Assembly: GCA_002964805.2 (NCBI GenBank)
Contig: PUDQ02000094.1
Span: forward strand, 42,340 to 106,339
Source of the DNA: Trametes villosa
Taxonomy: Eukaryota > Basidiomycota > Agaricomycetes > Polyporales > Polyporaceae
DNA length: 64,000 nucleotides
Reading direction: 5' to 3'
Below, piece after piece: positions 13,457 to 54,101 of the stretch. The notes beneath the pieces are model-generated. The model was not told the origin of the DNA, did no database searches, and saw only the letters and a list, made by a program, of their open reading frames with translations. The first letter of the stretch is position 1. Every line of letters begins with the position of its first letter. The translations under genes were made by a program, and so were the position numbers.

Positions 13457-16454
13457 TCAGATAAGTTCGCACTCACTATAGATCCTCGGCTTGATGATAT
13501 GAGCTTGATGGTATAACAGGACTATTCGACAGCGGGCCACAGCAATGTAGATACAGTTAAGAACAAGACGAGAGTGGTGGTACAGGACACCGCGCCCTGC
13601 GCAACCCCGCGCGATCCTCTGTGATACCATCGCGAAGCCTCCCGCGATCGCTTGATCGGCGCGATAACGATCTCGGAATCGCGAGTGCCGCACGAGTTCA
13701 TCGAGATATCTCAGGCACCCGCGTCTGGCATCCGGAGGGCCGCTCCGGGCTTGGAGGTAGCGCTCGAGGGGCGGGCCATGCTCCCGAGCGCCTCCCGTTG
13801 GCCGCGAGAAAGATCCCGAGGGGGCCGGAGGGCGCTCCGAGGTTGGCGCCCTCGGGATGCCCCTAAGCTTTCTCCGACAAGGGGAGGATCCCTGCTCACC
13901 CGTCGCGTTCTCGCTCTCGTCGTGCCTGTCGCTAGTAGCGGCAGGCAGTTGGGAAGGTCCGGCGACGGGTGCCTCCTGCATGTCCTCCATCGCGCGAGCG
14001 GGGGAGTACGGCGGAGGTGGGACTCCGTCATCGGGATGGGTACCCGTCACTACGTGTGACGGGGTCGAGGCAATGCTCGACGGTTCGGCGACCGCAGTTA
14101 TGGCGGTCGCGGTGGTGGTGGTGGACGCGTCGGTCATGTCGACGTCGTCGGTGGTAACGGCAGGCGCCTCGGGCGCCTGCGGGGGTGCGGGTGCTGGCGC
14201 GGGTGCTGGTGCTGGTGCGGGCGCGGGTGCAGGTGCGGGCGCATTGGGTGGCGGTAGTGGGCCGCCTGTAGCGACCGGTCCCAGGTCCTGTGAACTGGGC
14301 ACGACTCCGACGTTGAGGGTCGAATTCGGGCCGCCATCCATTTGAGGCAGCGACGACCGAAGGTCGCGCCCGTTCCGCTCGTTGCGGCACAGTCTCGCGA
14401 GCGGTAGGAACCGCTCCGCAGCCGTTGGGGTAAGGCCGCGCGCCGCAAACCAGCGCGCTAGGTGGAACAACGTCGTGCTTGCGACGTCGTTGGGGTAGGG
14501 GCCCGGGTGGTAGCTAGTACCTACGGGGTACTGCCCCTGCTCTACCACGTAACAGTAGAGCCCCGGCACTGAGGAGAGCCAGTGGGCGAGGGTCACCCAG
14601 TGCCCTCGCGGCCCCAGTGGCGTGCTGCGCGGCAGCATCGCTCGAACGTCAACGTGGTATTCCACGCTGTGCGTTGTAGGAAGCCCATTTGGCTCCCGCT
14701 CCATCCACTGAGGGATACGGCGCTCATCAACGCCGTACCAGGCCTGCCACACAGCAGGCGGGTCACTGAAGCTCGGCTGGTTTGGGGCCGGCGCCGTGCG
14801 CTGGGCACGCAGCTTCAGCTTGACCTCCCGCCACTCAGCGGGCGTCCGCTTGCGCGAGAGGGTTGACGACGGCGGCGGCAAGTGCGCCGTCGACGCATGC
14901 TCGAGTCCAGGGGGGGGTGTTTCCCCGGGAGTCGGCTCGTTGAAACGCCGCAATCAGCGGCGGTGGCGCCTCTCGACGCCACGACGATTGTAGCTGGTTA
15001 AGGCCAGCCACTCCGGTGTACTCCGAGTGGGAGTTCACTTGACCAATTAGGTTGCGGATGCGGTGAGCCGCCTCACCCGTATCACGGCGAGCAGCCATGA
15101 TGATGTTGTTGGCGTCCGCGACGGACACCGGCACGTAGTTGTACCAGTGCCCCGCAAGACGCGGGTCCGAATCGGTGGGGAGGGCCAACAGGTGGTACGG
15201 CCACCCGGGGACCCTCGCCACATCCGTCGCTGGTTGCGGCGGAGGTTGCGTGCCAAACGGCGCGCCCTGACCCGGAGCATGTGCCGGGCCAGTGTCGCGA
15301 CGAGCACGACGATACCGGTTTTGAGAGACGAGTCTCTCGATCCGCCTCTCGTCGATATCGTCGTCCTCGTCGCTCGTCGCGTTCTCCCAGTCCACCATAG
15401 GGTGGTCCCGGTCCGCGGATGTCGACGAGGTCGGCATCGCCGTCGAGTTTGACGGTCCTGCCACGTTTGGCGTCGTCATCTGCGACGCTCCAGTCCTCGA
15501 TGGTCCTGCCCCGCTGGGCAGCGACACGATCGGCATCAAGCTGGGCCCAGCAGACGGCGCTGAGCTCCTTGATGTCGACGCGAACGACCTATCGTTCGCA
15601 GTATCCCTCCTCCGAGGGCTGAGTTCCCTCGGGTCGCGTCGTTGTTCGTCGCGCGGAGGCGACGCCCTCCTGTGCCGAGCCCGACTGAGCTCAGCCTCCA
15701 ACTGCGAGCGCACTTCATCGCGCTCGCGCTCGTACTTGTCGCGCTCCTGGTGAGCGGCCTCGCGCTCGCTCCGGTACCTGTCCCGGATCGACTTCGTCTC
15801 GTTGACGAGCTCCTTCATCTTCTGGAGCTTCGCCTCGAGCTCCGCGATCCGATCGCGGCTCCTCCCCTCCTCCACCCTCTGGTGCTCCTCGAAGTGCCGC
15901 CAGAACCGCTGCTGCAGTTCTGACTGGACGCGCGTCTGCGCGTCCCGGAACGTCGAGTCTGACGCCGCCGAGTTGTAGTGGCGGACAAAGTCCGCGCACA
16001 CAGCGCAGTTGTCGCTGTGCGCGACCAACAAATGTTGGCCCGCTACGGGCGCCCAGGTCATGCTCGAGAAGGGCATGAGGGGGATGCCACCAGTCTGTGG
16101 CATCGGCGCGCTCGAACTGGGCGCGCTCTGGAATGCAGGACCCGCTTGATGCGGGAACTGGAAGCCGCCGCCGTACGGAAACCCGTAGGCGGGCATGCCC
16201 TGCGAGAAGGCATGCGGGAACTGCTGGGGGTGGGTTACCCCCGGCATGGACGAGAACGCGGGAGCTGCTGCTTGTTGCGGCAGCAGGAACTGATGAGGTT
16301 GGGGGAAGGGGCCGCTGGTTGCGACCCCTGTTGCTCCGAGGCTTGCTGCCCGGAGCCGCTGGCTTGTGTGTTGTCTTGGGGGGTGTCGTTCATGGCGCGG
16401 GCGTTGTTGTTGGTGGTGGTGGTGAGGTGGCAGAGGTCGGTTATGACCCTGCAT
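13457..16454 (-). CDS. Element A 3' ORF (downstream of pol), frameshifted
   Basis: Two overlapping open frames follow pol on the same strand. The first (ATG 16454 to stop 14835) has an N-terminal His/Gln/Pro/Phe-rich low-complexity part, a coiled coil (EELEAKLQKMKELVNETKS-like, about 15900-15690), a Ser/Arg/Pro linker and an ordered end (GHWYNYVPVSVADANNIIMA). The second (to 13457) has VTLAHWLSSVPGLYCYVVEQ and a Pro-Ala repeat (PAPAPAPAPA). They connect through a G8 run at 14910-14917; one base fewer would fuse them into about 1000 residues. The homologous ORF in element B is continuous there. No signal peptide or membrane segment was seen, so it is not a classical envelope. Function unknown; a structural or nucleic-acid-binding role is inference. 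Confidence 0.6.
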
Positions 16455-16584
16455 TCGCGAGGTCGCCGTCTTAAAGCGCCGGTGGAGTCCGAACGCGTCG
16501 GTGGCTGCCTCGCGCACGCGAGCCTGCACGTGACGTACTACTTCACGGTCACGCGCTCTCTGCGCGTGCACTGTCCTTCACCAT

Positions 16585-19145
16585 GACTACCCACTCAGGT
16601 AGTCTTGACCACGAAGCGCATGTTGCGCTTCGTACATCCGCTAAGTCTTGGCGGATGTTTTCTTGGGCAACGCGCGCCAAGCAGATACGCCCATTAGACG
16701 ACAATATTCGTCTAATGCTACGAGCTCCTTGCAGTGCTCGTAGGGTTCCCAGGTATGGTCCCCCATCGTCCACCGCACGTGGAACTGGCACTTGTTGCCA
16801 TTCCATTTGTGGCCGATAATCTCTTCCACCAACCATTCGGTGGAGTCTTCATTGCCAAAGTCGTAATACGACTTCGCCTCACGATGTGGGAATACCGCAT
16901 CGTCGTTTGGCTTATAGTGTCGTAATAGCGACGCGTGGAACCGAGGGTGTATCCTTCGGTTCCGGAGTTCTTCTGGTAGCTCCAGTACGTAGTTTGACGT
17001 ACTGGGTATGCTTTCGATTATAGCATACGGTCCGATGTATTTAGGCACGAGCTTTCGTGCTCGGCCCTTAGGTATCGACAAATTCTTTGTCGATAGGTAT
17101 ACCTTGTCCCCGACTTCAAAGTCGGGTTCGGCTTGCCTATGCTTATTCGCATAGTGTGTCTGGCGCACTCGCGCCTCGATGATGGCATCATGCGCCATCT
17201 CCAAGTTCGCCTTGGCTCTGAGTGCGAACTCTCGCACTCCTCGAAACGGAGTGTCCATTCCGATTCCGTTCATAGAACGCGGGAGATACCCGTAGTTCAA
17301 CTCGAACGGAGCGAACCCTGTGGTAGAACTTACCGCAGAGTTGATAGCGAACTCCGCTATCGGTAGCTTCTCATACCAGTCCAACTGGTCTGGAGCTACC
17401 AGTGCACGGAGTATCTGCGACACTGAGCGTATACTACGCTCAGATAATCCATCCGTCTGTGGATGGAACGACGTGGACATAAGCAGCTTCGCCCCCATAA
17501 GGCGATGCAACTCCTTCCAGAACTTGGAAGTGAACTTCGAGTCTCTATCAGAGACTATGGAGTCCGGTAGCCCGTGTAGACGGACTACTTCCCGGAAGTA
17601 GACCAGCGCCAGGTCTGACGCTATGTCGGTTGTCTTGATGGGTATGAGGTGTACCATTGAGGTTAACCGACAGACTACAATCCATATGTAGTCGTATCCG
17701 TGCGAGGGCGGAAACGGGCCGAAGAAATCCATGGACATAGACGTCCATGGAACCGTAGGTATCGGTAGCGAATGTAACAGCCCTATAGGGGGCTGTGTAC
17801 TTATTTTTGTGGTGTGGCACACGACGCACGAAATGCAGAATTTATCTACATCCTTGCGCAATGCGGGCCACCAAAACCACTTGTGCACGTACTCTGACGT
17901 GCGCTGAGGTCCAAGATGTCCAAGCGCGCTATGCGCTTGGTCTAACACGAGCTCTTGAAGGGCCCGTTTCCGATACAGACCACGAGGTATACACAATACC
18001 TCGTCGCCTTCACGGTTCTTGGTGTATATCACACCCTCGCGCATTACGAATGCGCGATGCTGAGTAGGCCGTTCCAGTATTTTCTGGAACGTCGGGTCAT
18101 TAACATAACCTGACTTGACGGCTTTCAGAAAGCCGTCGTCTCCCTCTACCCAGACACGCAATGAGGGACCCGCAGAGAGCGAGTCCGACAGCGTCACGTT
18201 GTCGCTGTTCGTGGGCACTGCAGTTACCAAAACAGGTGCATGTGCAGCGTAACGAGCCGATTCTACGACTCGTTCCTGTATTGGTTCTTGCACGCGTGCA
18301 GCGTGCGTGTTTTCTGCTTCTAACTGTGCGAGTTTTCGCGCGGATCGACGCAGGACTCGAGCTGCACGTAGCTCGATGAGTCGGGAGAAGGGGAGATCAT
18401 CCCCTTCAGGATCTAGCCGCAAGTCGGCATTAACATAGTCGAAATCTTCGGCTAGTTCCTCTATGTCGTCGTGTTCGAAGTAGCGGGACAAACAGTCCGC
18501 TACTTTGTTCAGTTTACCTGGAATATAGGTAATCGTCTTGTCGAACCTCGATAAGAATTCGTACCACCGTATCTGACGGTGGTTAGGACGCTCGAGTCCC
18601 TCAAGGAACTCGAGAGCTCTATGGTCAGTGACTATATTGAGCTTTCGTCCTATGAGCTTGTCCTCCCACTTGAACAAGCCTTCCATGATGGCGAGAGCTT
18701 CTTGCTCGTAGGTGCGATACGCCCGTTGTGCGGACGTAAATTTCTTCGACAGGAACCCGGCTGGCCTGCAAGTTTGCCAGTCGGGTCCTTGCCCGTATAA
18801 CGCTCCGAGTCCATACACGGACGCATCACAGATCAGCCAAATGGGATCTGCGGAAGCCGGATCTATCGGCTTCAGTATGGGCACCTTACACGCGAGTGCT
18901 TTGATAGACTCAAAGCACTTGTCGTGCAGTGCGCGCCATACGAACGGACGGTCGTTATGGACCATGTCCGATAACGGCGATGTGTACGCCGTTACATCTG
19001 GCATAAAATGTGCCAGATAGTTCACTAGTCCGAGGAACCGCTGCACCTCGTTATACGAGCGAGGTGTCCGCCAGTTCCTGATACGGCTCATCTTGTCCGT
19101 ATCGGCGTGTAGTCCCTTGTCATCTATTCGGTGACCGAGGCAATC
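16585..19145 (-). repeat. Hairpin-tiled coding DNA of element A (best-sampled block)
   Basis: Perfect short inverted repeats follow one another: 16585-16604 (7-bp stem), 16611-16633 (ACGAAGCGCA/TGCGCTTCGT, 10 bp), 16634-16658 (8 bp), 16692-16717 (10 bp), 16718-16743 (8 bp). Further on are CCAGTACGT/ACGTACTGG, TATCGACAAA/TTTGTCGATA, CCCGACTT/AAGTCGGG, GAGTGCGA/TCGCACTC, CTGAGCGTA/TACGCTCAG, CGAGGTAT/ATACCTCG, GACGGCTTT/AAAGCCGTC and many more. Loops are mostly 2-10 nt. The same texture covers the 3' ORF, the RT parts (26423-27030, 42419-42825), gag (45534-48019, 53267-53709) and the LTR. The coding frame stays open through it. Confidence 0.85.
16641..19145 (-). CDS. Element A pol, 3' part: RNase H, integrase, chromodomain
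   Basis: From the C insertion the frame reads LGHRIDDKGLHADTDKM (end of RT), RNase H (WLICDASVYGLGALYGQG), the integrase HHCC finger (HSALGHLGPQRTSEYVHKWF with CISCVVC), the integrase core with Asp in SMDFFGPFP, Asp in VSDRDSKFTSKFW and Glu in QTDGLSERSIRSV, and a C-terminal chromodomain (LVEEIIGHKWNGNKCQFHVR, GDHTWEPYEHC). Chromodomains of chromovirus integrases bind modified histone tails and bias insertion towards heterochromatin. The first ~14 residues of the longest open frame come from LTR C, not from pol. No internal stop from 19145 to 16641. Confidence 0.85.
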   Translation of the reverse strand, partial: DCLGHRIDDKGLHADTDKMSRIRNWRTPRSYNEVQRFLGLVNYLAHFMPDVTAYTSPLSDMVHNDRPFVWRALHDKCFESIKALACKVPILKPIDPASADPIWLICDASVYGLGALYGQGPDWQTCRPAGFLSKKFTSAQRAYRTYEQEALAIMEGLFKWEDKLIGRKLNIVTDHRALEFLEGLERPNHRQIRWYEFLSRFDKTITYIPGKLNKVADCLSRYFEHDDIEELAEDFDYVNADLRLDPEGDDLPFSRLIELRAARVLRRSARKLAQLEAENTHAARVQEPIQERVVESARYAAHAPVLVTAVPTNSDNVTLSDSLSAGPSLRVWVEGDDGFLKAVKSGYVNDPTFQKILERPTQHRAFVMREGVIYTKNREGDEVLCIPRGLYRKRALQELVLDQAHSALGHLGPQRTSEYVHKWFWWPALRKDVDKFCISCVVCHTTKISTQPPIGLLHSLPIPTVPWTSMSMDFFGPFPPSHGYDYIWIVVCRLTSMVHLIPIKTTDIASDLALVYFREVVRLHGLPDSIVSDRDSKFTSKFWKELHRLMGAKLLMSTSFHPQTDGLSERSIRSVSQILRALVAPDQLDWYEKLPIAEFAINSAVSSTTGFAPFELNYGYLPRSMNGIGMDTPFRGVREFALRAKANLEMAHDAIIEARVRQTHYANKHRQAEPDFEVGDKVYLSTKNLSIPKGRARKLVPKYIGPYAIIESIPSTSNYVLELPEELRNRRIHPRFHASLLRHYKPNDDAVFPHREAKSYYDFGNEDSTEWLVEEIIGHKWNGNKCQFHVRWTMGDHTWEPYEHCKELVALDEYCRLMGVSAWRALPKKTSAKT

Positions 19146-19601
19146 TGTCGCGGAGCTAGGCCCGGCACGACGAGGTACTGCACACAACTAAGAAAACTAA
19201 AACGATCTAACTCCCGGGGTGGTGGACGAAAGTCTCACAACACCTGAGCGTAGGTTCTCACGGCGAATCTAGCCCAAAGACCAAGTTAACATTCAGAACA
19301 TAAGAGCGAATACAAAACAAGGCTTACCTAGCCCAAAGACCAAGAGGTCAAGATGAGGGCTAGGGTCGCTACAGGGGTCCTTATATACTAAGCAAGGGGG
19401 GCCAAACATGTACAAATGTAGAGGTGGTCTGTGCGCACAATGCACTCAACCTGCAGGTAGGGATCAGGTGATGAGTCCCGTGATCTATCTACTCTAACTC
19501 TAAGTCCCGTGCGTGCTAAGTACCGTAGAATGGCCGTAGAAAAGCAGGAGAAATGCGGAAAAATATGGAAAAATACAGGGCGTCTAGTCGTCTCCATGAC
19601 A
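19146..19601 (-). repeat. Element C 3' LTR
   Basis: Begins TGTCGCGGAGC and ends CTCCATGACA in plus-strand reading. It differs from the right-hand copy at AACTAAGAAAA/AACTACGAAAA, GACGAAAGTC/GACGAAGGTC and CCATGACA/CCACGACA. It contains the same TATATAAGG box and AGGTCAAGAT motif as the 5' copy. Confidence 0.9.
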
Positions 19602-19612
19602 TTACCCCCCCT

Positions 19613-22600
19613 CTACTGTCCATCGTCCCTGATGGACCCACGGCCCGGGAAGCGTCCGCCCTCCCAGTCGCGGTCCGGAGGCGCAGCGTTGGTGAAGGTC
19701 ACCCGCGGTTGCCATGGAAGGTTCTTGAAGTCGACGGCCTGGATCTTTCGAGGTGCGCTGGGCGCGCGCTTGTGGAACTCGGCTACCTTTTCCGGCGCGT
19801 TGGTCAGGTTTGATGCCGGTTCCCAGCTGTCCTCGCCCTCGCCGTACCCCTTCCAGCGCACGAGGTATTGTAGCTGGTTACGGTAGCGGCGGCTATCCAG
19901 GATCCGATCAACTGCGTATTCTTCTTCTCCTTCCACTTCCACGGGTTCGGGTGGCGGTGGTAAGCGTCCGTTCACCTCGTTCCCCCTCCATGGGGATAGA
20001 CGGTCAACGTGGAACACGTTGTGAAGCTTGAGGGCGGGGGGAAGGGCCAAGCGATAGTCGAGGTCTCCGATCCGTTCAGTGACTTCGAACGGACCGAGCT
20101 GCCGGGGTCCTAGCTTAGGCGTGGCTTGATGGATGTGTATGTTCTTGGCCGTGAGCCAGACCCGGTCGCCGACCTTGAACGTGTGAGCTTTCCGCTTGCC
20201 GTCTTCGTAAGCTTGCTTCATGCGCTCTTTACTCATGCGCAGTGCCGCTTCCGCCTCCTTCCGTGCTTCCCGGAGCTTGGTGAGCCGAGCGTCGAGTGAT
20301 GGGATCTGCGTGGGGCGTCCCGCCGGGATGGTGAAGTCCGGTCGGTAGCCGTATAGGACTTCGAATGGGGTCTGTCCATGTGCCGTCTGTACCCGCAAGT
20401 TGAGTACGAACTCCGCCGTAGGAAGTAGGTCCGCCCAGTCGTCCTGTCGCTTGTCGCAGTAGATCCGGAGGTATTGCTCGACCTCCTGATTGGCTCGCTC
20501 TGTCTGCCCATTTGCCATAGGGTGATACGCCGTGGTGAGACCGCTTTCGATGCCAAGGCGCTTGTACAGGGCCCTGGTGACTCGTGCGGCGAACTGGGGT
20601 CCTCGGTCCGACACGATCTTCTGGGGAATGCCGTGAAGCCGGAAGATGGTCTGATAGTGCAGTTCGCCTATCCCTTCGGCGGTGACGGTGTCGGTGGTGG
20701 CTACGAGGTGGACTTGCTTACTGTACAGGTCGACATACGTGGTGATGGCGTTGAACCCTTTCGACGAGGGTAGACCCGTGATGAGATCCACGCCCATGAC
20801 GACCCACGGTCCTTCAGGTACTTCGTGGGGCTGAAGCGTCGCGTGGGGGTGCGCGGCGGCCTTGTAGCGCTGGCACCGGTCACACCCAAGGACGTACTTC
20901 TCGACAAACCCGCTAATCCCCGGCCACCAGTACAACCGGCTTACCAACTCCAGTGTCCCGTGCTTGCCCGGGTGTCCAGCCGTAGGCGCATCGTGGCATT
21001 GCCGGACGATGGCCTCCCTAAGTCCTTCCTCGGGCGGGATGTACAACCGACCACGGTAGTACACCAGCCCACCCTCCTCTTCCCATTCCCATGTCCCATC
21101 CGTCAACTTCCGCGGCCCGTCCTTCCGTAGGGCTTCCAAACCCTTCAGGACTTCCGCCTCCCTTCTACTGCTCTCCCTGATCCTTCCATCCAGCGGGTTC
21201 TCTACCCGAAGCGCCGCGGCGGCAATGGCCACAAAGTGCTCGGGTTTGAGCACGATCTGATCCCGGTTGTCCTCGGCATCACTGACTTGGAGCTCCGAGA
21301 TTCGAGACAGGGGGTCGGCCTGCGTGTTGGCCGTGCCCGGCTTGTGTGTGAGCGTGAAATCGAAGCGAGAGAGCCAGAGCGCCCAGCGGGCCTGTCGTCG
21401 GGTAAGGTTCTGGGCGGTCTTCCAGTGTTCGAGGTTGCGATGATCGGTGATGATTTCGAAGGGTTCGGGTAATCCTTCCAGGAAGTGGCGCCAATCCTCC
21501 AATGCTCGCACGATGGCCATGAGTTCACGATCGTAGATCTCGTAGTTCCGGTCCGCCTCGGTCATAGACTCGGACCGAAACGCCACAGGGTGCCACAGCC
21601 CGTCTTCCAGCTTCTGTAGCAGAACCCCGCCGGTCGCGTATCCGGAGGCGTCCACTTCTACCCGGGTTGGCCGCTCAGGCTCCCAGGTCACCAACACCGG
21701 TTCGGTGGTGAAGGCTTCCTTGAGCTTGTCGAAGGCGGTGCGCTGCCGAAGACCCCATTCCCAGGGGACATCCTTCTTAGTGAGGTCGTGAAGGGGGCGA
21801 GTGATCTTGGCGAAGTCCTTGATAAAGCGACGGTAGAAGTTGGCGAAGCCGATGAAGCCTCGGACTTCGCGGAGGTTGCGGGGGTGGGGCCAATCGCATA
21901 CTGCCTGGATTTTGACGGGATCCATGCTGACTTCGCCTTGCCGGATCACGAGTCCTACGTACTCGATCTCGGTTTGGTCAAACTCGCACTTCTCCGGCCG
22001 GAGGAACAGATCGTGAGCTTGGAGCCGCCGCAGTACCTCGTGGGTGACCCTGCGGTGCTCGTCAAGCGTGGCGCTAAAGATCAGGATGTCGTCCAAGTAC
22101 ACCGCTACCTTCCCGGCTGCGATCAGATCCCCAAAGATGGAATTCATCAGGGCCTGGAACGTCGCAGGCGAGTTGGTCAGTCCAAAGAACATAACACGGG
22201 GTTCGAACAGGCCCTGGTTAGTAGTGAAGGCCGCTTTCCATTCGTCGCCTTCCTTGATCCGTACGTTGTTGTAGCCCCAACGAACGTCGAACTTGGTGAA
22301 GTACTTAGATTGGCGAAGGCGATTGATGATGTCGGATGCGAGGGGTAGCGGATAGCGGTTCTTCACAGTGATGTCGTTCAGCTTTCGGTAGTCTTGGACC
22401 ATGCGGAGCTTGCCGTCCTTCTTCTTGACGAAGAAGACGGGGGAAGCCATGGGGGACTTGGACGGGGTGATGTAGCCTTTGCGAAGGTTCTCTTCGAGGA
22501 AGGCGTCCAGCTCGGCCTGCTCATTGACCGGCATCGGATACACCTTGGACCGGAGGGTCTCGGGAGCGTCAGGTTTCAGATCAATGGTGTGATCGTACGG

Positions 22601-23037
22601 CTTATGCTCAGGTAGTCTCTCAGACTCCTGTTCCGAGAAGACTTTGGAGTATTGGCGATACTCCTTCAGTACCATCTCTTCGAACGTCTTCGCGGGCTTA
22701 GCGCGGTGGGCCTCGGCGGCGAGCTCGGTGGAGTAAGTGAACCCGGCAGCGCACCAGAGTTCTTCGGTGGCTTCTTCCAGGACTCCGAGCTTCTGCCATT
22801 GCCTTCTCAGGCGCCGATTGGCCGAGATCTTCTCAAACGGGGGGAGGTCCTCCACGGGGGTCGCCGACCGACCGTCCGTTTCAACGTCAACCTTCCCATT
22901 TGTCCAATCTATCTGCGGATTGATCTTCCGAAGCCAGGGAAGTCCGAGGATGATGTCCTCAGGACCAATGTCCGTGACCAGGAACTCGGTGCGTTCGTTG
23001 TGCGATCTGAGGCCTAGCTCCAGACGTGCGAAGTGGG
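19613..23037 (-). CDS. Element C pol: protease end, RT, RNase H, integrase, chromodomain
   Basis: The open frame runs from the D insertion (SHNERTEFLVTDIGPEDIIL, GLPWLRKINPQIDW) through RT (VRWGYNNVRIKEG; active site VYLDDILIFS), RNase H (RVEVDASGYATGGVLLQ), integrase HHCC (CHDAPTAGHPGKHGTLELVS with LGCDRCQRYK) and the DDE core (GVDLITGLPSS, VSDRGPQFAARV, ANGQTERANQEVEQ) to a chromodomain (VDRILDSRRYRNQLQYLVRW, EGEDSWEPASNL). This is the Tf1/sushi-type order. Discounting the 644 bp of D plus one TSD copy puts it in phase with the protease frame upstream. No internal stop. Confidence 0.9.
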
Positions 23038-23042
23038 TAATG

Positions 23043-23681: not shown

Positions 23682-23686
23682 TAATG

Positions 23687-24005
23687 CTCCCGGCTCGGTT
23701 GCGTGATCCGTCGATGTTGTGAAGGGGGATGGCTCGCGCGAGGGGGTGGATCAGAACGCGATGCTGATCAATGAAGCGTTGATGGATGAATAGACCCGTG
23801 GTTCCGGAATCTATCATGGCTACTGCGTTTACGTTACGGTGTCTCCCTTTGAGATTCACACTGATGCGGAAGTGCGAACTGGTCGTGTCTATTTCAGGTA
23901 TAGTGAATGTACATGAGGAGACCGAATCATAGATAGACGGGGAGGGGATGTCCGTGCGTAAACCAGCGGGTGTCGGCGTCGTAGCCTTTGCGCGCACCCG
24001 ATTTA
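23687..24005 (-). CDS. Element C protease region (start of pol frame)
   Basis: The frame reads NRVRAKATTPTPAGLRTDI, then AMIDSGTTGLFIHQRFIDQH (aspartic protease DSGT) and ARAIPLHNIDGSRNRAGSI up to the D insertion. It is -1 relative to gag and overlaps gag's stop at GGCTTTTTAAAT, so expression would need a -1 frameshift there. The residues after GSI in the open frame (SWRRLDALLF...) come from LTR D. Confidence 0.75.
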
Positions 24006-25959: not shown

Positions 25960-25961
25960 AA

Positions 25962-42167: not shown

Positions 42168-42200
42168 GATGCTGGGGACTGATAGGAGTTTGACCAGTCC

Positions 42201-42413: not shown

Positions 42414-42418
42414 GCGGG

Positions 42419-42825: not shown

Positions 42826-42833
42826 TGTGGAAC

Positions 42834-45419: not shown

Positions 45420-45533
45420 TGTGGAACTCGCTACGTTGTCCTACTGCTTAGGTTTAGCAGTACCTTCGAATTGAAATCGAGGAACCCATTTCTTGGGTTC
45501 GGGTTTCGCAGTCGTCGAAACCTCGGGATCGAA

Positions 45534-48019
45534 CTACGGCAAACTCTTGCCGTTGATTACTACCGTACCTGCACGGAAGTCTAGGATTACTCCATGCTTC
45601 CTGCAGAAGGTAGTTCCCAACACGACATCGTACTTGTCGATGTCTACTACGTCAAAATATTGCGTAGTATTCACAGAGCCCACCTTGAGCTCTGCTTGCG
45701 CACCATAATTGATGCGCGTCTTGCTGCCCTTGGTTCCCAACTGCAGCCCTACAGGCTGCGCCAGATCTATACGATCTGCGTGACTCAAATACGCCAACTC
45801 TGGCATAATCGAATCGGTCATGCAGCCCGACTCGAATAAGGCCAGAGCTGTGACCTTATTGATTGTGATCTCAGCGCATAACGTGCGCTGGGCCTGGAGC
45901 GTGCGCACAGGTTGCGCCGCGGGATTGTCTATACGACGTATCTTATTGTCGTATAGCCAGGCCTGCTTGTACCCTCGCGTGGGTGCAACAGCCATGGTGT
46001 GTAACCGAAGAGGCTCAGCTTCGGCCTCTTCTAACGGTGCAATACGCATCGCGATGAAGTATTCATCTGCATCTCCCTCTCCAGGAGATGCGTAATGATC
46101 CTCGTCAGGATCATACTGAGATCCTTCCAGACCATAGTCTGACAACGGATACTCTCCGTTGTCGTCTGGGCTATCCGCAAGAGCCTCGGATTCAGGCTCT
46201 TGATCATCGGGATGAGTTGCCGCATTGTCGTCGGCAACGTCTTGTTGTGCAGACGGCTCGTTGCCATCATCCGACGTGTTGTCGATGACACGCTGAGCGA
46301 ACATCCGCTGTACTGTAGTGGATTTCTTCCCGTAGTTGGGACATTTCGTGTCGCTCGCGAAGTGGCCTATTTGACCACAGGAATAGCACTTAAGAGGTGC
46401 TTTCTGGGTCTTATCAATCCGCGCAGTTGACGCGGATTGCTGCACCGCGCCAGACTGACGCGGTACCGAACCACCTCGCACATCTGTCGAAGGGCGTTTA
46501 AAGCCAGTAGTAGCTTTATGTGTCGTAATATTATTACTACGGGAAGCCGAAGCCGTTGGCTTCCTAAGTACATTACGCACTCCTCGTTGCGGGCGTGCCT
46601 CTACCGTCGGCTTAGCACCGGTGTTCGGTATAGTATGTGCTCGCGAAGGTTCGCGAGCTAACTTCCGAAGCCGCATAGCGCGCGACTTCTGCTCAATATC
46701 TTGAGCCACTTGGTACAATTGTGCCAAGTCGTGTTCTTGAGGTGACATACCGTTCACAACGGTAAGTAGATACTCGATGTCTTCGGGTAACGCCTCAATG
46801 AACTTCCTACGCAATTGGAAGGGCGTAGGCTTTTCCCACATCCGTTCGGATATGTACAGCAGCTTCTCATATAGAGCTGCGACCCCTCCGTCACTGGAGC
46901 GGTAAATTAGCGAAGCATACTGTTGCTCCGCAAGTAGGTTCAAATCCTTATGGATGAACCTGCGATAGAGGGCTATTACAGTCTCCTCGAATATCCAGTC
47001 GCACTTATCGCGCGACGGAGACTGTATAGTGTTGTAGAACCACGTAGCGGCATCACCGCTAAGTGCAGTGCCCAATATTCGGACACGGTCACGGTCCATC
47101 CTAGGACCCGTGATCCTCAACGTGTTGAAGTACTCGAGGAGGCCTCGCAGCCATACCTCGAGTGCATCGAGATCGTCTTTCCCCTCGTACATCTTGGGTG
47201 GCGCCAGTTTCGCCACCTTCAAGTACGCAGGGGGATCACCCTCTGGCGGTGACCCGACCATCTCATCTATCATCCGTACGAGACGGCTGATCGTTACACC
47301 ATCACGAGGCCCTACTACAGGCCCCGTGTATGCCAGCGGTTCAGTAGTTTCCGCTAGCTGCATAGGAGGTAATCCTCCGTAATATGCAGACGCTCCCATT
47401 GAGCGTCGAGGGTGTTTCCAGTCCCATAGTCCAGGCGGCCATTCTTGACGGTACACGGGTCCTTGGGACGCAGACATAGGCTCAGCGGGATAATTGCTGG
47501 GCGAGGATGGGATGGGCTGCGCGACGTGCGCAGCCCTGGTCGAGCCTTGCTGATGATCGAATGCCACGTTCCGAGTAGGAACGGCAGTCTGTGCATCGCC
47601 AGTGCGGCGAACTGATGAGGACGGCGGCAGTTGCGCCGTTGTGTGCGGTGGGTCATACAGCCCTGCACGGCTCAGTCGTTCAATTCGGCCAGCGACAATG
47701 CGCTGGCGAGGATCCAAAAGTGCATCCTCTACTTTGCGATCATCTGCGAAGTTCTCCGTTTGCGGATCAGCAGCTGAGCTGATATGCGTGTCTATGGTTG
47801 CCCTTGTCATAGGCAACTCGTCGCTTTCATCCTCACCAGCCACGATAGGCTGATGAATGTGGTGCCCTGCATCGGCATCCTCACTTACCGCTATGGCGCG
47901 AGCGGTAAGGTCCTCCTCGTCTTCTTCATCCATTAGGTCACCTAGGCCTAATTCCGCTAGTGCGGACTGCAGAGCGAGATTTGTCTCGTTCTCTGCCTCG
48001 AGTATCTGCTTCTGCAGCA
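45534..48019 (-). CDS. Element A gag C-terminal part and protease
   Basis: The frame enters from the F junction (LLQKQILEAENETNLALQSA) and covers the capsid region (DDLDALEVWLRGLLEYFNTL, ALSGDAATWFYNTIQS, KFIEALPEDIEYLLTVVNG), the C-x2-C-x4-H knuckle (CYSCGQIGHFASDTKC) and the protease fold (LALFESGCMTDSIMPELAYL, YDVVLGTTFCRKHGVILDF). The protease motif is ESG where the catalytic DSG is expected, and B has DSGST, so this protease is probably dead. The ORF ends TAG at 45534-45536; the same frame continues (FDPEVSTTAKPEPKKW) to a second TAG near 45436 and then into the RT. Confidence 0.85.
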
Positions 48020-48033
48020 GACGGAATTAGTGT

Positions 48034-48250
48034 TGCAGGGTCCTGTCCCAGGACCAGTCCGGGACCGGTACAGGACCGTAACTGGACCAGTAAAGACTGG
48101 ACCAGGACTGATCCCACAGCGGTCCTGGTCCTGGTTCAGTCCCGGTCCTTCAGCCTCACGGAATTTTGAAGGACTGAGCAGGACCGCTGGGGACTGGTCA
48201 AGGACCGCAGGACAGGACCGCACGGAACCGGTCCAGGACCACTTAATGAC
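48034..48250. repeat. Left subterminal GGACC/GGTCC array of element F
   Basis: More than ten short copies of CAGGACC, GGACCAG or GGTCCTG lie within 220 bp of the left end. The mirror array is at 53042-53250. They probably bind the transposase. Confidence 0.8.
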
Positions 48251-48443
48251 CGGTCTTTTAAGCCTGTAGTAGCACTTGCTATATGCAGAACAGTTATCTT
48301 ATCACGAGAGATAGTCAGCCCGCGGCGAGCGTGCACAGCTTCAATCGCGCACATGGCTAACCAACACTGATCTAATACAAAACTATCCGACCAGACGGTA
48401 TCGTCCTTCCATCAACATCCTCGCTTCTCGACATCGTGACACA

Positions 48444-51400
48444 ATGGCGCAGTCCAAAACGGGTAGCAGTAGCCGAGCCGGTACAAAGCGAAAGCAAGAC
48501 GAGCGCAGTGCAAGCGAAGGTGAAGGCCAAAAAGGGGATCGAGGCAAGGGAAGTAAGACGGCGAAGAACGGGAAGAAGGGCAGCAGCGCGGCGAAAAAGA
48601 AGAAAGCGCAGAGTGATAGCGATGAAGACGAGTCCCCGGTAGAGGACGAGGACGAGAAGGAAGAAGACGACGACGAGGACGAGAAAATAGAGGGCAGCAC
48701 CGAGACGGAGGAGGCGGATGACGAGACCGTGACCAAAAAAAGGCGTAAGGCCCCGAAGAAGAAGAAAAAGCGGCAGCCTAACGGCGGCGAGGAAGAACCT
48801 ATCGAGGTGAGTACGCATTAGTACACAAAGCGTCGCCACCCGTTGCTGACGTCTGGGTGAACTCGCCTTGTAGGTCTCAGACGGCACGGGGGACGAGCTC
48901 GCGCTCCCACAACGTTCGCGCTTGAAGAGCGAGATGGCTCGCGACCTTCGGCTCATGTTCTCCAAGCTCCAGGACGTGCGGTTCACGGGCTCGAAGGGGA
49001 AATCCGTCACGGAAAGGGGCCGCTGGTGCGAGATCTGCCGGTGAGTAGGCTTAACATGACTGTCAGGGAGCTGGATAGAAGATGTACTCACGTTCATGCG
49101 GTAGGGAGAACAAGAAGTTGAAGCAGGAGAAGGGGGGCCGCGCCGGGTGGTACAAGGGCGGTAACTCGACCTTGAGGCGACACATCGCCTCCGCACACTA
49201 CGAGGAGTATGCGCGAAGGTGCAAAGACGAGGGAATCGAAGAGCAAGAGGCCGCCGTCCCACTAGATGTACGAGAGAAGCGAAAGCGAGCGGCGGCCGCA
49301 GAGGCTAAGGGCAAGGAGGAGAAGGAGGGCAAGGGGAGAGGGCAGACGACGCTCGACGGGGTTGTCCGTAAGGTTCAGGCCCCGACGTCGTTCTCGCAGG
49401 AGGTAATTTTGGACGCCGTCACGAAGCACATCGTGTGCGGTGACCAGGTGCGTGTATTCTCACGCGAGCATTGTGTTTATGTTCAAACTCTAACTCTAAT
49501 TCTACTCGCTGCCGCTGCAGGCTCTCCTCCTCGCCGACACCCCCACCTTCACCAACTGTCTGGTGGCAATGCGCCCCAAAACTAGCAAAAGCGAGCTCCC
49601 AACGCGGTCGATCATACGGACGAACATCAAGAACCACTTCGTGGACTTCATGACCGACTTACAGGCCGCTATCAAGGCTGCGCCGGGAGACGTCTCCTCG
49701 CTCTGGGACCTTTGGACGGCGCCCCACACCTCGGACGGCTATTTCGGCCTCCTGGTCCAATGGATCGAGGTCGGCTCAACCGAGGGCGAAGATGCGCCCG
49801 CGCCCTGGCGGTTTCACGTCGAAGTTGCGGCACTCCACAAGATCCATGGCGACCACGGAGGAGCCAATCTCGGGCGGCACTTCATCCGGTGCCTCGACCG
49901 GTGCGGGGTGACGTCGCAGGAGCACTCGAAGGTACGTACACTGGCATGTGTGCTGGCGAGTTTTCACTGATCCATGCGGCGCCCCGGACAGCTTGGGCAC
50001 ATCACTAACGACAACGCCTCGAATAATACCACCGCCGCGGCCCAAATCGCCGCACGCCTGAAGAAGCGAGGGGTGGCAGAGCGGTGGGTACCGGAGGAGC
50101 GGCAACTTAGGTGAGCCTCTCCCTTCCTTCTCAACCACCCCGGGCATGTGCATGCTGTGAGGTGCGGGCTACACGTGTGCGGCAACCGGCGACCGGAGGC
50201 AACGCGGGTGCGCGCAACCGAAGAACACCTCGACTACAAGCCGGCCGGTGCCCACATAGGATCCGGCGCCCCGCCTCTCACAGCAACGCGTCGACGACAC
50301 CCGCGTGCCCGTCCACGGCATCACTCGGGGAGCCGCAAGTGTACGCACAGCCGCCGCGGGGGCCCTGATGACGCGGCCTGCCCATATCAGTACGTCCGCC
50401 TCTCTGACGCGCACGCACATGCAACTTACATCTATTACCGGGCCGTCCTAGTCGTGAACGGCCCCGACCAGCTTTGTGCACACGCAACAGCGATCGGCCG
50501 GCGGATGAGGTACATGCACAAGACCACGCACTCGCACACACCCTCCGCACACGCACTCACCCTCCGCACGCGCGCACACATCATGCACGCGGACGCGGAC
50601 GCAGGTGGCACACAAGAACGCGCCAACGCGTGCACGGCCACGTACACGGACGCGACCTCGATCGCGCCTCGATCGCGCCAACGAGCACGGGCGCAATTAC
50701 GAACGCGGGCGCGACTTCGAACCCGAACGCGACTTCGAATGCGGACGCGGACACGACGACGAACGCGACGGCGAACGCGCACGGCGTGCAACCATGGACG
50801 CCGGCGCGACCACGGACGCCGGCACGACCACGGACACCGGCACGCGTGCGAACGCGGGTGCGAGTGCGAACGCGGGTGCGAGTGCGACTCGGAACTCGGG
50901 CGCGACTTCGAAAGCGGACGCGGACACGAGCACGAACTCGACGAAGAATGCGACGACGACCGCGCACGGCGTGCAACCACGGACGCCGGCGCGACCACGG
51001 ACGCCGGTGCGACCACGAACGCGGCCGCAACCACGAACGCGGGCGTGGCCACGAACGCGGCCGCGGACACGAGCACGAGCAGGAGCACAAGCGCGAACAC
51101 GACCGCGCACGCAGTACAATCACGGCCACGACCATGACCACGAGTGCGAACGCGGCCGCGAGAACGACCACGAGCACCAGTGCGAACACGGCCGCGGACG
51201 GCAGGCACGCACGCACGCCGCATGCCCACACACGCACGTCCGCACACGCGTGCACGCGCTCGGGGCCCGACGAGCACGCCTTGGTGTACTAACATACTCT
51301 AATTACAGCTGTTTTGGTCACGTCATACAGTTGGGGGTCGAGGACTTCATGAAGGAGGTCACTCAGATCGCCGTCGTGGAGTCCAAACAGGCGATATGGG

Positions 51401-52975
51401 AATACGACCCCCAGCTCCCGGAGAATCGCATCGCGTCGGGCGGCCTTGACTCGATCGCCGTCCTGCGCACTCTCGCAATCAAGGTATGCCCAGAACTTGT
51501 TGCGCATGCCATTGCTGACGCCCCTAGTAGATCCAAGCATCCGGGCCGCGCAAAGAAGTGTTCCAACGCTACCAGCGCGAGAGCGGGATTGACGAACCGC
51601 GCGTCATCCCTTTGCACAGCAACATCCGCTGGGGCAGCGCATCGGGCATGTGCAATCGCGCATACGAGCTGCGCGAGGTGAGGACTGCGAATCGCCGCGC
51701 GCTGGGTGCATAACTGATACTATGATCTCATCAGGCGATTGACGCGTTCGTGGCAACCGCGGACATGAAGTTCGGTCCGATTACCACCATTCGCGTTCGC
51801 GGCAAGATCACGAAGAAGATCCCTTGGACCGCCTTCCAGCTGTCGCCTGACGACTGGGACCGCGTGCGTCTATGCGGCGAGATCCTAATGGTGCGCTTGT
51901 CGTTGGCGTCGCGGTGCTCGAGCTGTACTAACCTCTCCATTAGGATGCAAACCGGTTTCACCAGATCTGTTCCTCGACACGCGTCCCGACGTTGCACCAG
52001 GTAATACCGGCCATCGAGGCGCTGTCGTCACGTTGGGAGAAGAAGGCCGCCGACGAAGAATACGCGATCTTCCACAGCGCGCTCAACCGTGGACTCGCGA
52101 AGCTCACCAAGTACTACAAGAAATTCGACAACACGCGGGTGTACGTCCTGGCCTTACGTACGTATGCGCTGTCCGTTTTCTCTCGTGTTCATTGGCTCAC
52201 CGGTCTCAGTCCTTCATCCATATTACAAGCTTGCTTACATCGAGCAAATGTGGGGCGGGGAAGAAGAGTACGAGGAGGATGTCGCGGCCGGCAACGCTGA
52301 TGCCCGCAACTGGCAAGCGTATGCCAATGAGATCGTCGAGAAGGCTGTAAGTGTGGTGACCTCCCTGCGCGCTCCTAACTCACTTGTCCTTGACAGATGC
52401 AGGAGTACTGGCCCAAGCGCATGGTCGGGAAGGGGACGGCTGTACCTGCTGCACCTGATGTTGTGGATGGTCAGTATGGTGAAGATGAGTACGACCGTGC
52501 CCGTGCACAACGCGTCCGTGCCGCTGCTACCAAGGGATGGAAGGTTGAGCTGGACCAGTACCTCTCCGACCCCTCCGCCAATGTGACAAAGGATACAGAC
52601 ACTGTCAAGTGGTGGTCGGTGCGTGACATCTGTGCGCCTGCATGAAGCCATTACTTACCACCTTTGCAGACACATGCCAGCGTCTACCCGACCCTGGCAC
52701 GCATGGCATTGGATATACTGCCCATTGCTGCTGCCTCTGTGGGCGCTGAGGCTCTCTTCTCCCAGGGGAAGGAGGTTTTGACTGACCGTCGCTCTCGCTT
52801 GGACCCCGAGCTCTTCGAGCAGACACAGTGCCTCAACTTCGCCTGGAAGCCTACTATTGAGGACTGGGCTAGGCTCAACGACAAGCTGACGGTGGATGTC
52901 TTCATGCAGGACTTTGAGTTCATGTATGCAGAGGAGATGGCCATGGCTGAGGATACAGATGTAGATTCTGAGTAG
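48444..52975 (+). CDS. hAT transposase of element F, 919 aa, 12 exons
   Basis: In-phase exons: 48444-48806, 48874-49040, 49105-49447, 49521-49931, 49992-50110, 51309-51483, 51531-51677, 51735-51890, 51944-52157, 52210-52346, 52397-52618, 52670-52975 (2760 nt). The N-terminus is Lys/Glu-rich and nuclear-like (KKRRKAPKKKKKRQ). A BED-type zinc finger follows (GRWCEICR with STLRRHIASAH), then the catalytic RNase H-like fold (SSLWDLWTAPHTSDGYFGLL, LGHITNDNASNN, CFGHVIQLGVEDF, HSNIRWGSASGM) and the C-terminal dimerisation/insertion motif (YPTLARMALDILPIAAASVG). No stop or frameshift. Introns are 50-75 bp except intron 5 (50111-51308, 1.2 kb). Branch-like TACTAAC precedes the acceptor at 51308. Confidence 0.92.
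50111..51308 (+). repeat. 1.2-kb intron of the hAT gene filled with a GC-rich minisatellite
   Basis: From about 50620 to 51230 the sequence is variants of CGACCACGAACGCGGC, CGCGACTTCGAACGCGGA and CACGAGCACGAAC. Because the unit lacks stop triplets, long ORFs appear in three plus frames and on the minus strand (Thr/Arg/Ala-rich); these are artefacts. The exons on both sides join in phase (ERQL|SCFGHVIQ). The donor GTGAGC follows 50110, and the acceptor TTACAG precedes 51309. Confidence 0.85.
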
Positions 52976-53041
52976 ATATAGCATCTCATAATACAGACTG
53001 TGCTTGGATGAACATCTGGCTTGGACTTGATGATAATTTGA

Positions 53042-53250
53042 ATGAAAGGACTGGTCCTGGACCGTCAGGACCAGTCCGGACCGGAAAACGGTCCAGGACC
53101 GGTCTGGACCGGGGACAGGACCGCGGTCCTTTGCGGTCTTTCAAGGACCGCGGTCCTGGTCCAGTCCTACATAATTAGACCAGTCCTGTCCTGGTCCCAG
53201 TCCTGGTCCTCCTTCCGAGGGGGCAAAAGACCGGACAGGACCAGACCCTG
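53042..53250. repeat. Right subterminal GGACC/GGTCC array of element F
   Basis: Counterpart of the left array: repeated GGTCCTGGACC, CAGGACC and CCGGTC motifs, ending at the inverted repeat ...GACCCTGCAACACTA. Confidence 0.8.
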
Positions 53251-53258
53251 CAACACTA

Positions 53259-53709
53259 GACGGAATCGTTTCTTCGATTCCCGAACTACCATGCGCAACG
53301 GCGCAAGGTTCAGTGCCGGAGCCGCCCGCACTGAAGAGCTCGCAGCCAACTGCTGCAAGCGTCCTTCACGCAGATCCTGCCAGTCTTGCCCAATGTTGGC
53401 AAGACTCCGACTGTTAAGTGAGCTCGCAGCGGAGCCCGATCGTCGTGACGGGCCTGCTTGTTCTGAAGCCGGTCGTCCAGCATGCACGCTGGCAGTCGCA
53501 CGACCCCTAGTAGGGTTCGTGGTGTCGTCTAAGCCGCCGGATACCACTGATTGTGGTATCGAGGGTCCACCCTCGCCCTCTGTAGACCGAGGGAGTGACG
53601 TGGCGGGTTGACCCGCGCCGAACTCAGCGCGGGGGGGTTGGTTCGAGGTAGAAGTCAAGGCCCGCGGAGTTCGCGGGTCCGTGGGGTTGTTTGAGCTGTG
53701 GTGGCTCAT
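53259..53709 (-). CDS. Element A gag, N-terminal part
   Basis: ATG at 53709 (MSHHSSNNPTDPRTPRALTS), a Ser/Pro/Arg-rich disordered region and a helical NIGQDWQDLREGRLQQLAAS, then MVVRESKKRFR at the F junction. It continues in phase at 48019. Hairpins are dense here too, such as AGTCTTGCC/GGCAAGACT near 53390 and GATACCAC/GTGGTATC near 53550. The residues after KKRFR in the local open frame belong to F. Confidence 0.8.
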
Positions 53710-53813
53710 TCTTGCTGGATGCGGATGGGGGTTGCTAGGGGATTAGAGTTCGATGATGTGGTTGCACGTCGAGCCCCAAATCGGGCGATTCTAACACGGT
53801 AAGAGTAAAAAAG

Positions 53814-54101
53814 TGTAAAACTCACGGGTGTCGGGCACTTCTGATGCCCGCAGTCTCCTAGTACTCTGGTCCAGGCTCTATTAGGGCTCGGCGTACTCGG
53901 GAGATGGTGGGGCAGTTGTAGAAGGCTGCCCTCACCAGACGCGCGGGCTCCGAATACCCGCGCGTCGTACGCGTCTATCTACTACATGATATCTACGCAG
54001 TATCTTATCCTAGCGCAACTAGCGCTAGGTACTGATCGCGACATAGCGCAACTAGCGCTATGTCCTACAAGAACCCGTAACGACCACGGAGGGTCGTTAC
54101 A
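53814..54101 (-). repeat. Element A 5' LTR (only copy in the window)
   Basis: On the minus strand it begins TGTAACGACCC and ends GTTTTACA, 288 bp, followed by the leader CTTTTTTACTC; element B has TGTGACGCCC...TTATTACA and CTTTTTTTGACT at the same places. It is rich in hairpins: GTAACGACC/GGGTCGTTAC, AGCGCAACTAGCGCT twice, and ACGCGCGGG/CCCGCGCGT. The outer flank is TCAGT; the matching duplication would mark A's other end and was not found. Confidence 0.7.

Follow-up and report, generated by a model that had tools for sequence, protein, structure and literature searches.

Short, perfect hairpins along almost the whole of a Ty3/Gypsy-type retrotransposon in Trametes villosa

The window, meaning the whole 64,000-nucleotide stretch of Trametes villosa DNA that was analysed, contains an LTR retrotransposon, here called element A, at positions 13880-54101. 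It is present as five blocks separated by four insertions. Element A is of the Ty3/Gypsy type. Its Pfam domains are in the order RT, RNase H, integrase, with integrase last. The RT domain (PF00078, 4e-30) is in the frame at 26204-27088. The ORF at 16641-19187 encodes RT_RNaseH, Integrase_H2C2 and SH3_Tf2-1, and rve is present below the cut-off. No match to the chromodomain PF00385 was found in A at an E value of 0.001; the neighbouring element C has one, as do some protein relatives of A (e.g. P0004). Polyporales Ty3/Gypsy pol families, compared as proteins only, have the same pol domains in a precomputed Pfam list, and a Trametes sanguinea protein matches A pol at 71%.

All blocks of A are on the minus strand. 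The 5' LTR (53814-54101, ~288 bp) is full of hairpins, with 13.9 stems of at least 8 bp per kb. Its limits were set by match ends; 23 of 40 scored matches to 53700-54102 begin at query base 2 and finish at 286-292. The leader and the N-terminal part of gag follow at 53258-53813 (5.4 such stems per kb), and 53258-54102 is 97% identical to copy L051. The C-terminal part of gag, with a zinc knuckle (Pfam zf-CCHC), and the next frame occupy 45420-48027; this block is 96% identical to L051 and has stems all along. The N-terminal protease/RT part is at 42413-42833 (7.1 per kb; 97.6% to copy L010) and the RT core (PF00078) is at 26413-27039 (3.2 per kb; 97% to L010). The RT C-terminus, RNase H and integrase, at 16641-19145, form the densest coding part (7.6 per kb). 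Stems go on in the 3' ORF region (13880-16640). This is truncated at ~13880, rather than at the 13600 given in an earlier note on this DNA, because matches to other copies stop there. From 15163 upwards the region matches L010, and 13880-14400 matches other copies; 14401-15162 was assigned to A because these stretches flank it. We found no 3' LTR of A in 12801-15000, and no second copy of the LTR stretch within the window; this leaves the window copy with its 5' LTR alone. On C10, an LTR match (464450-464737) comes after a pol match (458653-461160), as two separate matches. None of 4227 Rfam models reached its gathering score in the window, and a scan of IMG/VR for relatives of A gave none that was confirmed.

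Two of the insertions are probably hAT-like DNA transposons, judging from their inverted ends and short repeat or overlap. One (48028-53257) has inverted ends TAGTGTTGCAGGGTC and a 9-bp direct repeat AGACGGAAT; L051 matches on either side of it with a 9-base overlap. The other (42834-45419) has inverted ends around CAGCTGTGGTAGTT, and L010 matches on either side with an 8-base overlap. The third insertion is element B (27034-42412, plus strand), whose end repeats (27033-27236 and 42210-42413) are 100% identical. Inside B is a copia element, E, with repeats at 31649-31878 and 36058-36287. The fourth is element C (19146-26412, minus strand), with direct repeats at 19146-19445 and 25962-26261. 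The end repeats of C and E are 98-99% identical.

We counted perfect stems of at least 8 bp, with loops of 3-12 nt, and compared the counts with 60 codon-preserving shuffles. The RNaseH/integrase ORF (16641-19187, minus strand) has 19 stems, against 0.6 ± 0.8 after shuffling (maximum 3). For the gag ORF (45534-47933) the count is 10 against 0.6 (maximum 3), for the RT parts 4 against 0.3 and 2 against 0.1, and for the 3' ORFs 5 against 0.6 each; the count for 'A 3ORF2' ran to 13457, which is 423 bases beyond the end of A, and no weight was placed on it. The strips 'A PR/nc' (43000-45533) and 'A 5end' (53000-54101), which are largely and partly in insertions, were given no weight; the latter, with 258 insertion bases, was used in shuffle counts and in the analysis of spacing and opening. 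The earlier note had described hairpins throughout pol, RT, gag, the 3' ORF and the LTR, and each has an excess or a high density. The run of five stems that it reported at 16585-16743 (minus strand) is, by direct count, exactly 7, 10, 8, 10 and 8 bp. Its four quoted arm pairs are likewise present, each within an A block (26462/26478, 17073/17086, 42538/42551 and 53382/53398). Most hairpins of A are perfect Watson-Crick stems of 6-10 bp with loops of 3-12 nt. In L010, which has 7.3 perfect stems of at least 8 bp per kb, the excess is confined to such loops; loops of 13-15 nt gave 4 against 2.0 and those of 16-20 nt 3 against 3.2. The spacing of hairpins is random, which rules out an even tiling against guides.

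Base composition had been thought insufficient to explain the pattern, and shuffles that preserve codons and dinucleotides indeed fall far below the observed counts. These shuffles refute composition, codon usage or chance as the cause. The neighbours in the same window lack the pattern, nothing was found in favour of this explanation, and we give it practically no weight. Stems of at least 8 bp are absent from C pol, C gag, E, B gag, B RT, B RH/IN and B 3'ORF2. Thus, C and E do lack the texture at this length, as first described, with a borderline signal for stems of at least 7 bp (z 2.2 and 2.0). The comparison of A with codon shuffles and with C and E, proposed as the way to overturn the original claim, left it standing. 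The weak texture ascribed to B was recovered for stems of at least 6 bp (gag 11 against 6.4 shuffled, 3'ORF1 15 against 7.5) but not for stems of at least 7 bp in its pol frame (z 0.5). B 3'ORF1 has 2 stems of at least 8 bp against 0.9. Because C, E and B are without the feature, yet have near-identical end repeats, hairpins are dispensable for transposition in this host.

Among the matches listed for the pol part of A (55, of which 30 as loci), 18 full-length copies were compared; the partial copies L027-L029, L034, L035 and L037 were unused. All 18 carry the excess in the RNaseH/IN ORF, with 19-25 stems each. Shared synonymous variants were then located, with L019, L020 and L024 dropped as near-duplicates; in the counts for pol and for sites outside the pol ORF, stretches with more than 20% mismatch in 60 bases were masked. 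In pol, 4 of 79 fall in stems against 30.6% expected (P 2.7e-8), about one sixth of the expected number (4 against ~24). With three other reference copies the result was 2/81, 2/77 and 4/79. Outside the pol ORF, 2 of 34 shared variants are in stems (26.3% expected, P 0.005). In gag the figure for synonymous variants is 6/56 against 27.9% expected (8 copies, including that in the window). Conversely, singletons outside the pol ORF hit stems as expected (34/127 against 26.3%), which means that stems are not protected from mutation in the host. In pol, synonymous singletons are depleted, though less strongly than shared variants (17/110 against 30.6%). The depletion of synonymous changes holds for stems of 6, 7 and at least 8 bp and is absent for 4 bp. 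Shared variants avoid stems; therefore, stems were kept while the element was active. Hence, selection for a folded nucleic acid in A, one of the two causes offered in the earlier note, is supported by shared synonymous variants that avoid stems of at least 6 bp and by singletons outside the pol ORF that do not.

Covariation, also suggested as a check, gave little. Only one compensatory double change (in L026) was found in reliably aligned data from the RT-to-3' region of 14 A copies, and none in the LTR-plus-leader of 12 copies. Double changes in L013, L015 and L018 were uncounted since they are in misaligned 3' stretches. A synonymous transition is possible in 309 stem pairs of pol, but on both sides in only 36 of them. 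When A is compared with a sister family, the two changed bases pair in 17 of 38 double changes, which is no excess over a chance level that was reasoned and not simulated.

The nearest families in this genome range from no hairpin excess to a moderate one. A weaker excess than that of A was seen in the sister family and in four further pol frames, and z is below 2 for 14 of 23 frames surveyed; the survey omits L002, L005 and L008, and some frames may belong to one family. The related elements B, L041 and L043 are without the feature. Synonymous differences from L031 within the sister family also avoid stems in L033 (6/159, 18.8 expected, P 8e-4) and L032 (1/58, 6.9 expected, P 0.013); for L045 the count is 6/100 (11.8 expected, P 0.086). 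Stem positions mostly turn over between families. Thus, 4 of 52 A hairpins are centred at the same place (±1 nt) as one of the sister family, where shifting yields 1.08 (as many as 4 in 11 of 829 shifts). The figure is 9 of 52 at ±3 columns, and for L039 it is 1 of 52 at ±1 nt.

Folding energies were lower than the shuffle mean in 16 of 16 windows of pol and 15 of 15 of gag. The energy excess for sense and antisense strands is 41 and 39% in pol and 35 and 27% in gag; the sense value is the higher one in both pol and gag of A and in the sister family, and by a bare margin in L039. In 350-nt windows the excess is 31.3% (L010, 5.5 kb) and 29.8% (gag). Stem breaks to G.U and A.C are equally frequent (55 and 53; outside stems 311 and 325; odds ratio 1.08, P 0.76), and helices with one mismatch have G.U 45 times and A.C 44 times. 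An earlier, smaller count had favoured the sense strand (G.U 38, A.C 23). In a sense-only control, rRNA, the counts are small: G.U 4 and A.C 0, or 5 and 3 with a looser cut, and the folding excess is 7.2 against 2.2%. The hairpin loops have a G+C content of 0.442 against 0.544 in chance loops (137 loops; a value this low came up in 0 of 5000 resamples) and appear by eye to be A- and T-rich with no evident common motif. Since rRNA loops are likewise G+C-poor, this trait is not specific to avoidance of dsRNA. Unpaired G+C in the MFE fold, relative to codon shuffles, is 0.83-0.85 for A, 0.98 for L041 and 1.02 for B. Pooled stem length falls with G+C (rho -0.21, P 0.005; chance stems 0.00), so that long stems are A+T-richer. 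This trade-off derives from the RT-to-3' region of A (rho -0.24) and L039 (-0.71), with rho at 0.02 in gag and likewise in the sister family. The median energy needed to open 21-mers in pol is 8.6 against 6.4 kcal/mol.

The single-stranded RNA phages MS2 and Qbeta, which we computed as controls, resemble A. Each of their strands has an energy excess of ~26-32%, stems break to G.U about as often as to A.C, and loops are G+C-poor. A thus has the traits of the MS2/Qbeta type: both strands fold and few G and C are unpaired. Conversely, stems of at least 8 bp number 7.3 per kb in A (L010), 0.6 in MS2 and 1.4 in Qbeta. The phages replicate through minus RNA and A through DNA. The earlier note knew of no element family with such hairpins. 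For retrotransposons this stands, as our literature search on retrotransposons found no described family with element-wide hairpins; the general phenomenon is, however, known in RNA viruses as GORS (PMC7642675). As in GORS as presented there, A has consecutive stem-loops in coding sequence, an energy excess over shuffles, pairings and positions poorly conserved among relatives, and paired sites that are less variable. Unlike it, A has stems that are perfect as well as short and pair strictly locally, and, with an LTR and integrase, it is a retrotransposon and not a positive-strand RNA virus. The excess of ~30-31% in 350-nt windows compares with 15% for SARS-CoV-2, 7-9% for HCV and, among vertebrate RNA viruses, a maximum reported genome mean of 23.4%, by different shuffling methods (PMC7642675). 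SHAPE data for the genomic RNAs of the yeast LTR retrotransposons Ty1 and Ty3 assign up to 30% of the RNA to well-folded regions (PMC11381356). A is similar in having predicted folded regions and differs from these probing figures in its perfect hairpins throughout coding blocks and LTR.

We tentatively favour, at a probability of about 40%, selection on the LTR, leader, gag, pol and 3' ORFs of A for short local hairpins made by synonymous choices, such that the RNA of each strand, sense or antisense, folds on itself, with less dsRNA and less RNAi. Silent codon choices would build hairpins over nearly all of A, and its two RNAs would fold instead of annealing. Less long dsRNA would then be available as a substrate for host silencing, and the folded RNA would expose fewer open target sites to the machinery. 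Coding sequence for Piwi, RdRP and paired RNase III domains is present in the host. We infer the advantage of avoiding dsRNA from the near-equal folding of the two strands, a trait of MS2 and Qbeta as well; a function in limiting dsRNA and RNAi is thus plausible. The G+C-poor loops accord with the 'fewer unpaired GC rule' described for the avoidance of dsRNA (PMC6913131). It is possible, with rather less assurance, that the hairpins are a strand-symmetric armour that blocks annealing and escapes fungal RNAi, and that related families have repeatedly acquired and shed it in an arms race. Several observations sit awkwardly with a role against dsRNA: spacing is random, whereas perfect shielding from guides predicts evened-out spacing; the sense strand of A folds slightly better; and C, E and B are mobile without hairpins. 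If the favoured reading is true, an LTR retrotransposon has more short perfect hairpins per kb than two computed ssRNA phage genomes, with selection on them over almost its entire length. Escape of a mobile element from silencing by RNA folding, and not by a suppressor protein, would become testable, and hairpin-rich and hairpin-free relatives in one genome would provide a natural experiment. Synonymous sites of transposons need not then be neutral clocks.

Selection might instead act on the sense RNA alone, for VLP packaging or compaction, RNA stability, translation pacing or the hiding of sites from Argonaute guides. The better folding of the sense strand, the harder opening of 21-mers and the first G.U/A.C count agree with this, as do the well-folded regions of yeast Ty3 RNA (PMC11381356). 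The larger comparison, in which G.U is no better tolerated than A.C, does not support this initial model, and the rRNA control, albeit with small counts, behaves differently. The related B, L041 and L043 also manage without hairpins, and we consider selection on the sense RNA alone unlikely, though deserving of weight.

Less probable again is a mutational drive, in which, as reverse transcription proceeds, imperfect palindromes let the growing strand fold back and copy one arm from the other without benefit. The perfect short-range pairing, the likeness of the strands and the random spacing would fit. Because so few pol pairs allow a two-sided synonymous transition, correction in coding parts would also mostly revert changes. 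The template switching put forward in the earlier note is nevertheless disfavoured. No templated multi-base changes, and no clusters of templated changes, were found in 11 sister-family stems of at least 7 bp in up to seven copies, and compensatory changes are nearly lacking. Arm copying predicts neither G+C-poor loops nor, in the pooled data, A+T-rich long stems, and pols of the same clade are without stems. Furthermore, 5' and 3' arms are equal in identity to relatives, which rules out strand-specific switching. Hairpins could also serve in single-stranded cDNA, protecting it or helping synthesis or integration. Strand symmetry and the poor tolerance of both G.U and A.C fit pairing in DNA, but the A- and T-rich loops have no evident motif, and RNA phages, which have no DNA stage, show equal symmetry. 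We know of no need for cDNA hairpins over a whole LTR element, and a role in DNA seems very improbable. Selection for folded RNA on both strands remains our preferred reading, and its stems have no measurable amino-acid cost: invariant columns are replaced in 4 of 121 cases in stem codons and in 5 of 181 outside.

Element A, a Ty3/Gypsy-type LTR retrotransposon, lies on the minus strand and spans 54101 to ~13880. Matches to other copies define five blocks (53258-54101, 45420-48027, 42413-42833, 26413-27039 and 13880-19145), with 14401-15162 counted as A because of its position between matched parts. Pfam domains for RT, RNase H and parts of integrase were found, and gag contains a zinc knuckle. 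Among the best hits to A pol, the named protein relatives are from Trametes, Phanerochaete and, once, Peniophora, which suggests that a polypore-like basidiomycete is the likely host. The 5' LTR is ~288 bp (boundaries from 23 of 40 matches); no other copy of it was found anywhere in the window. The window copy ends at ~13880, the point where other copies diverge. The adjoining DNA, 12900-13879, is 95% identical to one other site (G000:C24:315682-316658) in the 46.7 Mb host assembly that contains the window. Hence, some rearrangement or repeat truncated A at 13880.

Four insertions split A. These are the retroelement B, with copia element E inside it, the retroelement C, and two DNA transposons that appear hAT-like from their inverted ends and 8-9-bp overlaps. 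In the first (42834-45419), the inverted ends are short (CAGCTGTGGTAGTT) and the flanking A sequence overlaps by 8 bp; the insertion also carries palindromes of its own (one of 15 bp, two of 11 bp). For the second (48028-53257), the inverted ends read TAGTGTTGCAGGGTC and the direct repeat, of 9 bp, reads AGACGGAAT. Degenerate repeat copies, often spaced by 18 bases, lie within this insertion at ~50670-51200, and a 16-bp stem (53116-53158) is close to one end.

The hairpin texture of A described in the earlier note is real, as measured by a 1-kb scan and codon-preserving shuffles, and the five stems and four example arm pairs it listed are exact. Perfect stems of at least 7 bp, with loops of 3-12, reach 14 per kb in A, compared with 0-2 per kb across most of the window. 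The RNaseH/integrase ORF has 19 stems of at least 8 bp and gag has 10; the mean was 0.6 for each in 60 codon-preserving shuffles per ORF. An excess over shuffles was seen in the RT parts and the 3' ORFs as well. As had been claimed, C and E lack the texture: stems of at least 8 bp are absent from C pol, C gag and E, and from B gag and B RH/IN. Such stems occur at 2.9-13.9 per kb across the LTR, leader and all coding blocks of A (the last block, as counted, extends 423 bases beyond A's end) and at 0.3 per kb in the window flanks outside A. In L010, a full-length copy of A pol, stem length has a mode of 7 bp and a maximum of 10, and the excess, present at loops of 3-12, is lost by 16-20.

The best reading is that selection on A favours both RNA strands folding locally on themselves. 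We compared 14 A copies, near-duplicates having been dropped, and called variants shared if present in at least 2. Only 4 of 79 shared synonymous variants in pol fell in stems, which hold 30.6% of synonymous opportunity (P = 2.7e-8); three other reference copies gave 2/81, 2/77 and 4/79. Outside the pol ORF the count was 2/34 (26.3% expected, P = 0.005). Singletons there, probably mostly post-insertion changes, were at expectation (34/127 against 26.3%). Thus, these changes were not kept out of stems. Singleton synonymous changes in pol were intermediate (17/110). Variants in gag were in stems in 6 of 56 cases (27.9% expected), and the LTR-plus-leader of 12 copies gave 1/17 shared variants (21% expected), too few on their own. 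Depletion reached significance in the stem classes of 6 bp, 7 bp and at least 8 bp, and not in those of 5 bp (2 against 5.3 expected) or 4 bp (8 against 5.3). In a sister family, L033 and L031 differ at 210 of 2487 sites; L033 retains 5 stems of at least 8 bp, compared with 8 in L031, and 6 of 159 synonymous differences are in stems (18.8 expected). Two further sister copies showed the same tendency, with 1/58 (L032; 6.9 expected) and 6/100 (L045; 11.8 expected, P = 0.086). Replacements at otherwise invariant residues were not in excess in stem codons (4/121) compared with other codons (5/181).

A less likely alternative is a mutational origin of the stems, with one arm copied from the other. 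Similarity to relatives is about equal for both arms. Arm copying predicts neither G+C-poor loops, nor A+T-rich long stems, nor a plateau of hairpin energy. Loop G+C is 0.442, compared with 0.544 in chance-hairpin loops (0 of 5000 resamples as low), with no G+C depletion in linkers. Loops of the ssRNA phages MS2 and Qbeta, and of rRNA, are likewise G+C-poor; hence, such loops mark folding selection in general. Stems of 9 and 10 bp, pooled from A, the sister family and pol family L039, have G+C of 0.53 and 0.46 (chance, 0.61 and 0.60). For A, mean hairpin energy reaches a plateau of -12 to -13 kcal/mol over stem lengths of 8-10 bp, as if stability had a ceiling. By set, L039 and the RT-to-3' region of A show the trade-off between length and G+C; gag and the sister family do not.

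Selection on the sense RNA only should spare G.U pairs. They are not spared, which makes this reading less likely: the ratio of G.U-type to A.C-type changes is the same inside stems (55:53) and outside (311:325; P = 0.76). Helices with one mismatch comprise 45 with G.U and 44 with A.C (38 and 23 in an earlier, smaller count). The folding-energy excess of A is nearly equal on the two strands, with sense slightly ahead (31.3% sense, 27.3% antisense; measured in up to 8 windows of 350 nt, each against up to 6 dinucleotide shuffles). MS2 (29.7/25.7%) and Qbeta (30.2/32.4%), in which plus RNA and minus RNA alike have to remain single-stranded, behaved like A in the same tests. Conversely, rRNA (7.2/2.2%) was unlike A, on small counts. 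Values for B pol and C pol were 1.8/5.4% and 1.1/0.8%. The phages differ from A in perfect stems of at least 8 bp per kb (MS2 0.6, Qbeta 1.4, A 7.3).

According to the 'fewer unpaired GC rule' (PMC6913131), loops with unpaired G and C favour duplex formation with the complementary strand during Qbeta replication. Fewer sense/antisense duplexes of A would leave less substrate for Dicer. The host has coding sequence for Piwi domains, for RdRP domains at several loci and for paired RNase III domains, and 21-mer target sites in A are harder to open (median 8.6 against 6.4 kcal/mol). We infer that structure may permit RNAi avoidance. Hairpins are not necessary for transposition in this host, since hairpin-free C, E and B have end repeats 98-100% identical and so moved recently. 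The window itself has a partial RNase III domain match (59959-60138; G000:C92:102298-102477), equalled in score and length on contig C16 (12964-13143).

A works like GORS, the genome-wide folding of RNA viruses, in its stem-loops throughout coding sequence, pairing turnover and less variable paired sites (PMC7642675); it lies outside GORS as defined there, for RNA viruses. Well-folded regions have been found by probing yeast Ty3 RNA (PMC11381356). The listings from our search of open-licence literature showed no description of element-wide hairpins in a retrotransposon, in agreement with the earlier note, which knew of no described family with the property.

A genome search with A pol as the query found 55 matches. 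Of these, 31 have 94-100% identity, some being pieces of one copy, 7 belong to the sister family (70-74%), 11 are B-like (54-58%) and 6 are lower. All 18 full-length A copies of the pol part have 19-25 stems of at least 8 bp (shuffle means 0.3-0.9). We surveyed 23 pol or RT frames for stems of at least 7 bp, with 150 codon shuffles apiece. The z score was 26 for A, 6.9 and 4.1 for two sister copies, 2.2 for C and 2.0 for E; 14 frames, including B (0.5), were below 2. Four other pol families have a moderate excess (L044 5.3, L039 4.9, L003 4.0, L048 3.8); the relatives L041, L043 and L047 have none. Strong-hairpin families are scattered on a tree of 12 rows with a long outgroup branch. Hence, judged from these sequences, the trait looks graded and patchy. 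Third positions are almost saturated when A is compared with the sister family (39% identity), and stems have mostly turned over; 4 of 52 stem centres coincide within 1 nt (1.08 expected) and 9 of 52 within 3 columns.

Some A copies at different loci differ little over ~2500 bases (L023/L024 by 1, L017/L020 by 2, L018/L019 by 7); each pair reflects either recent sister insertion or a segment duplicated in the genome or by the assembly. At G000:C3:119592-128987, two oppositely oriented pol frames ~6.5 kb apart have identical search scores (886 aa) and may represent a retroelement duplicated in inverted orientation.
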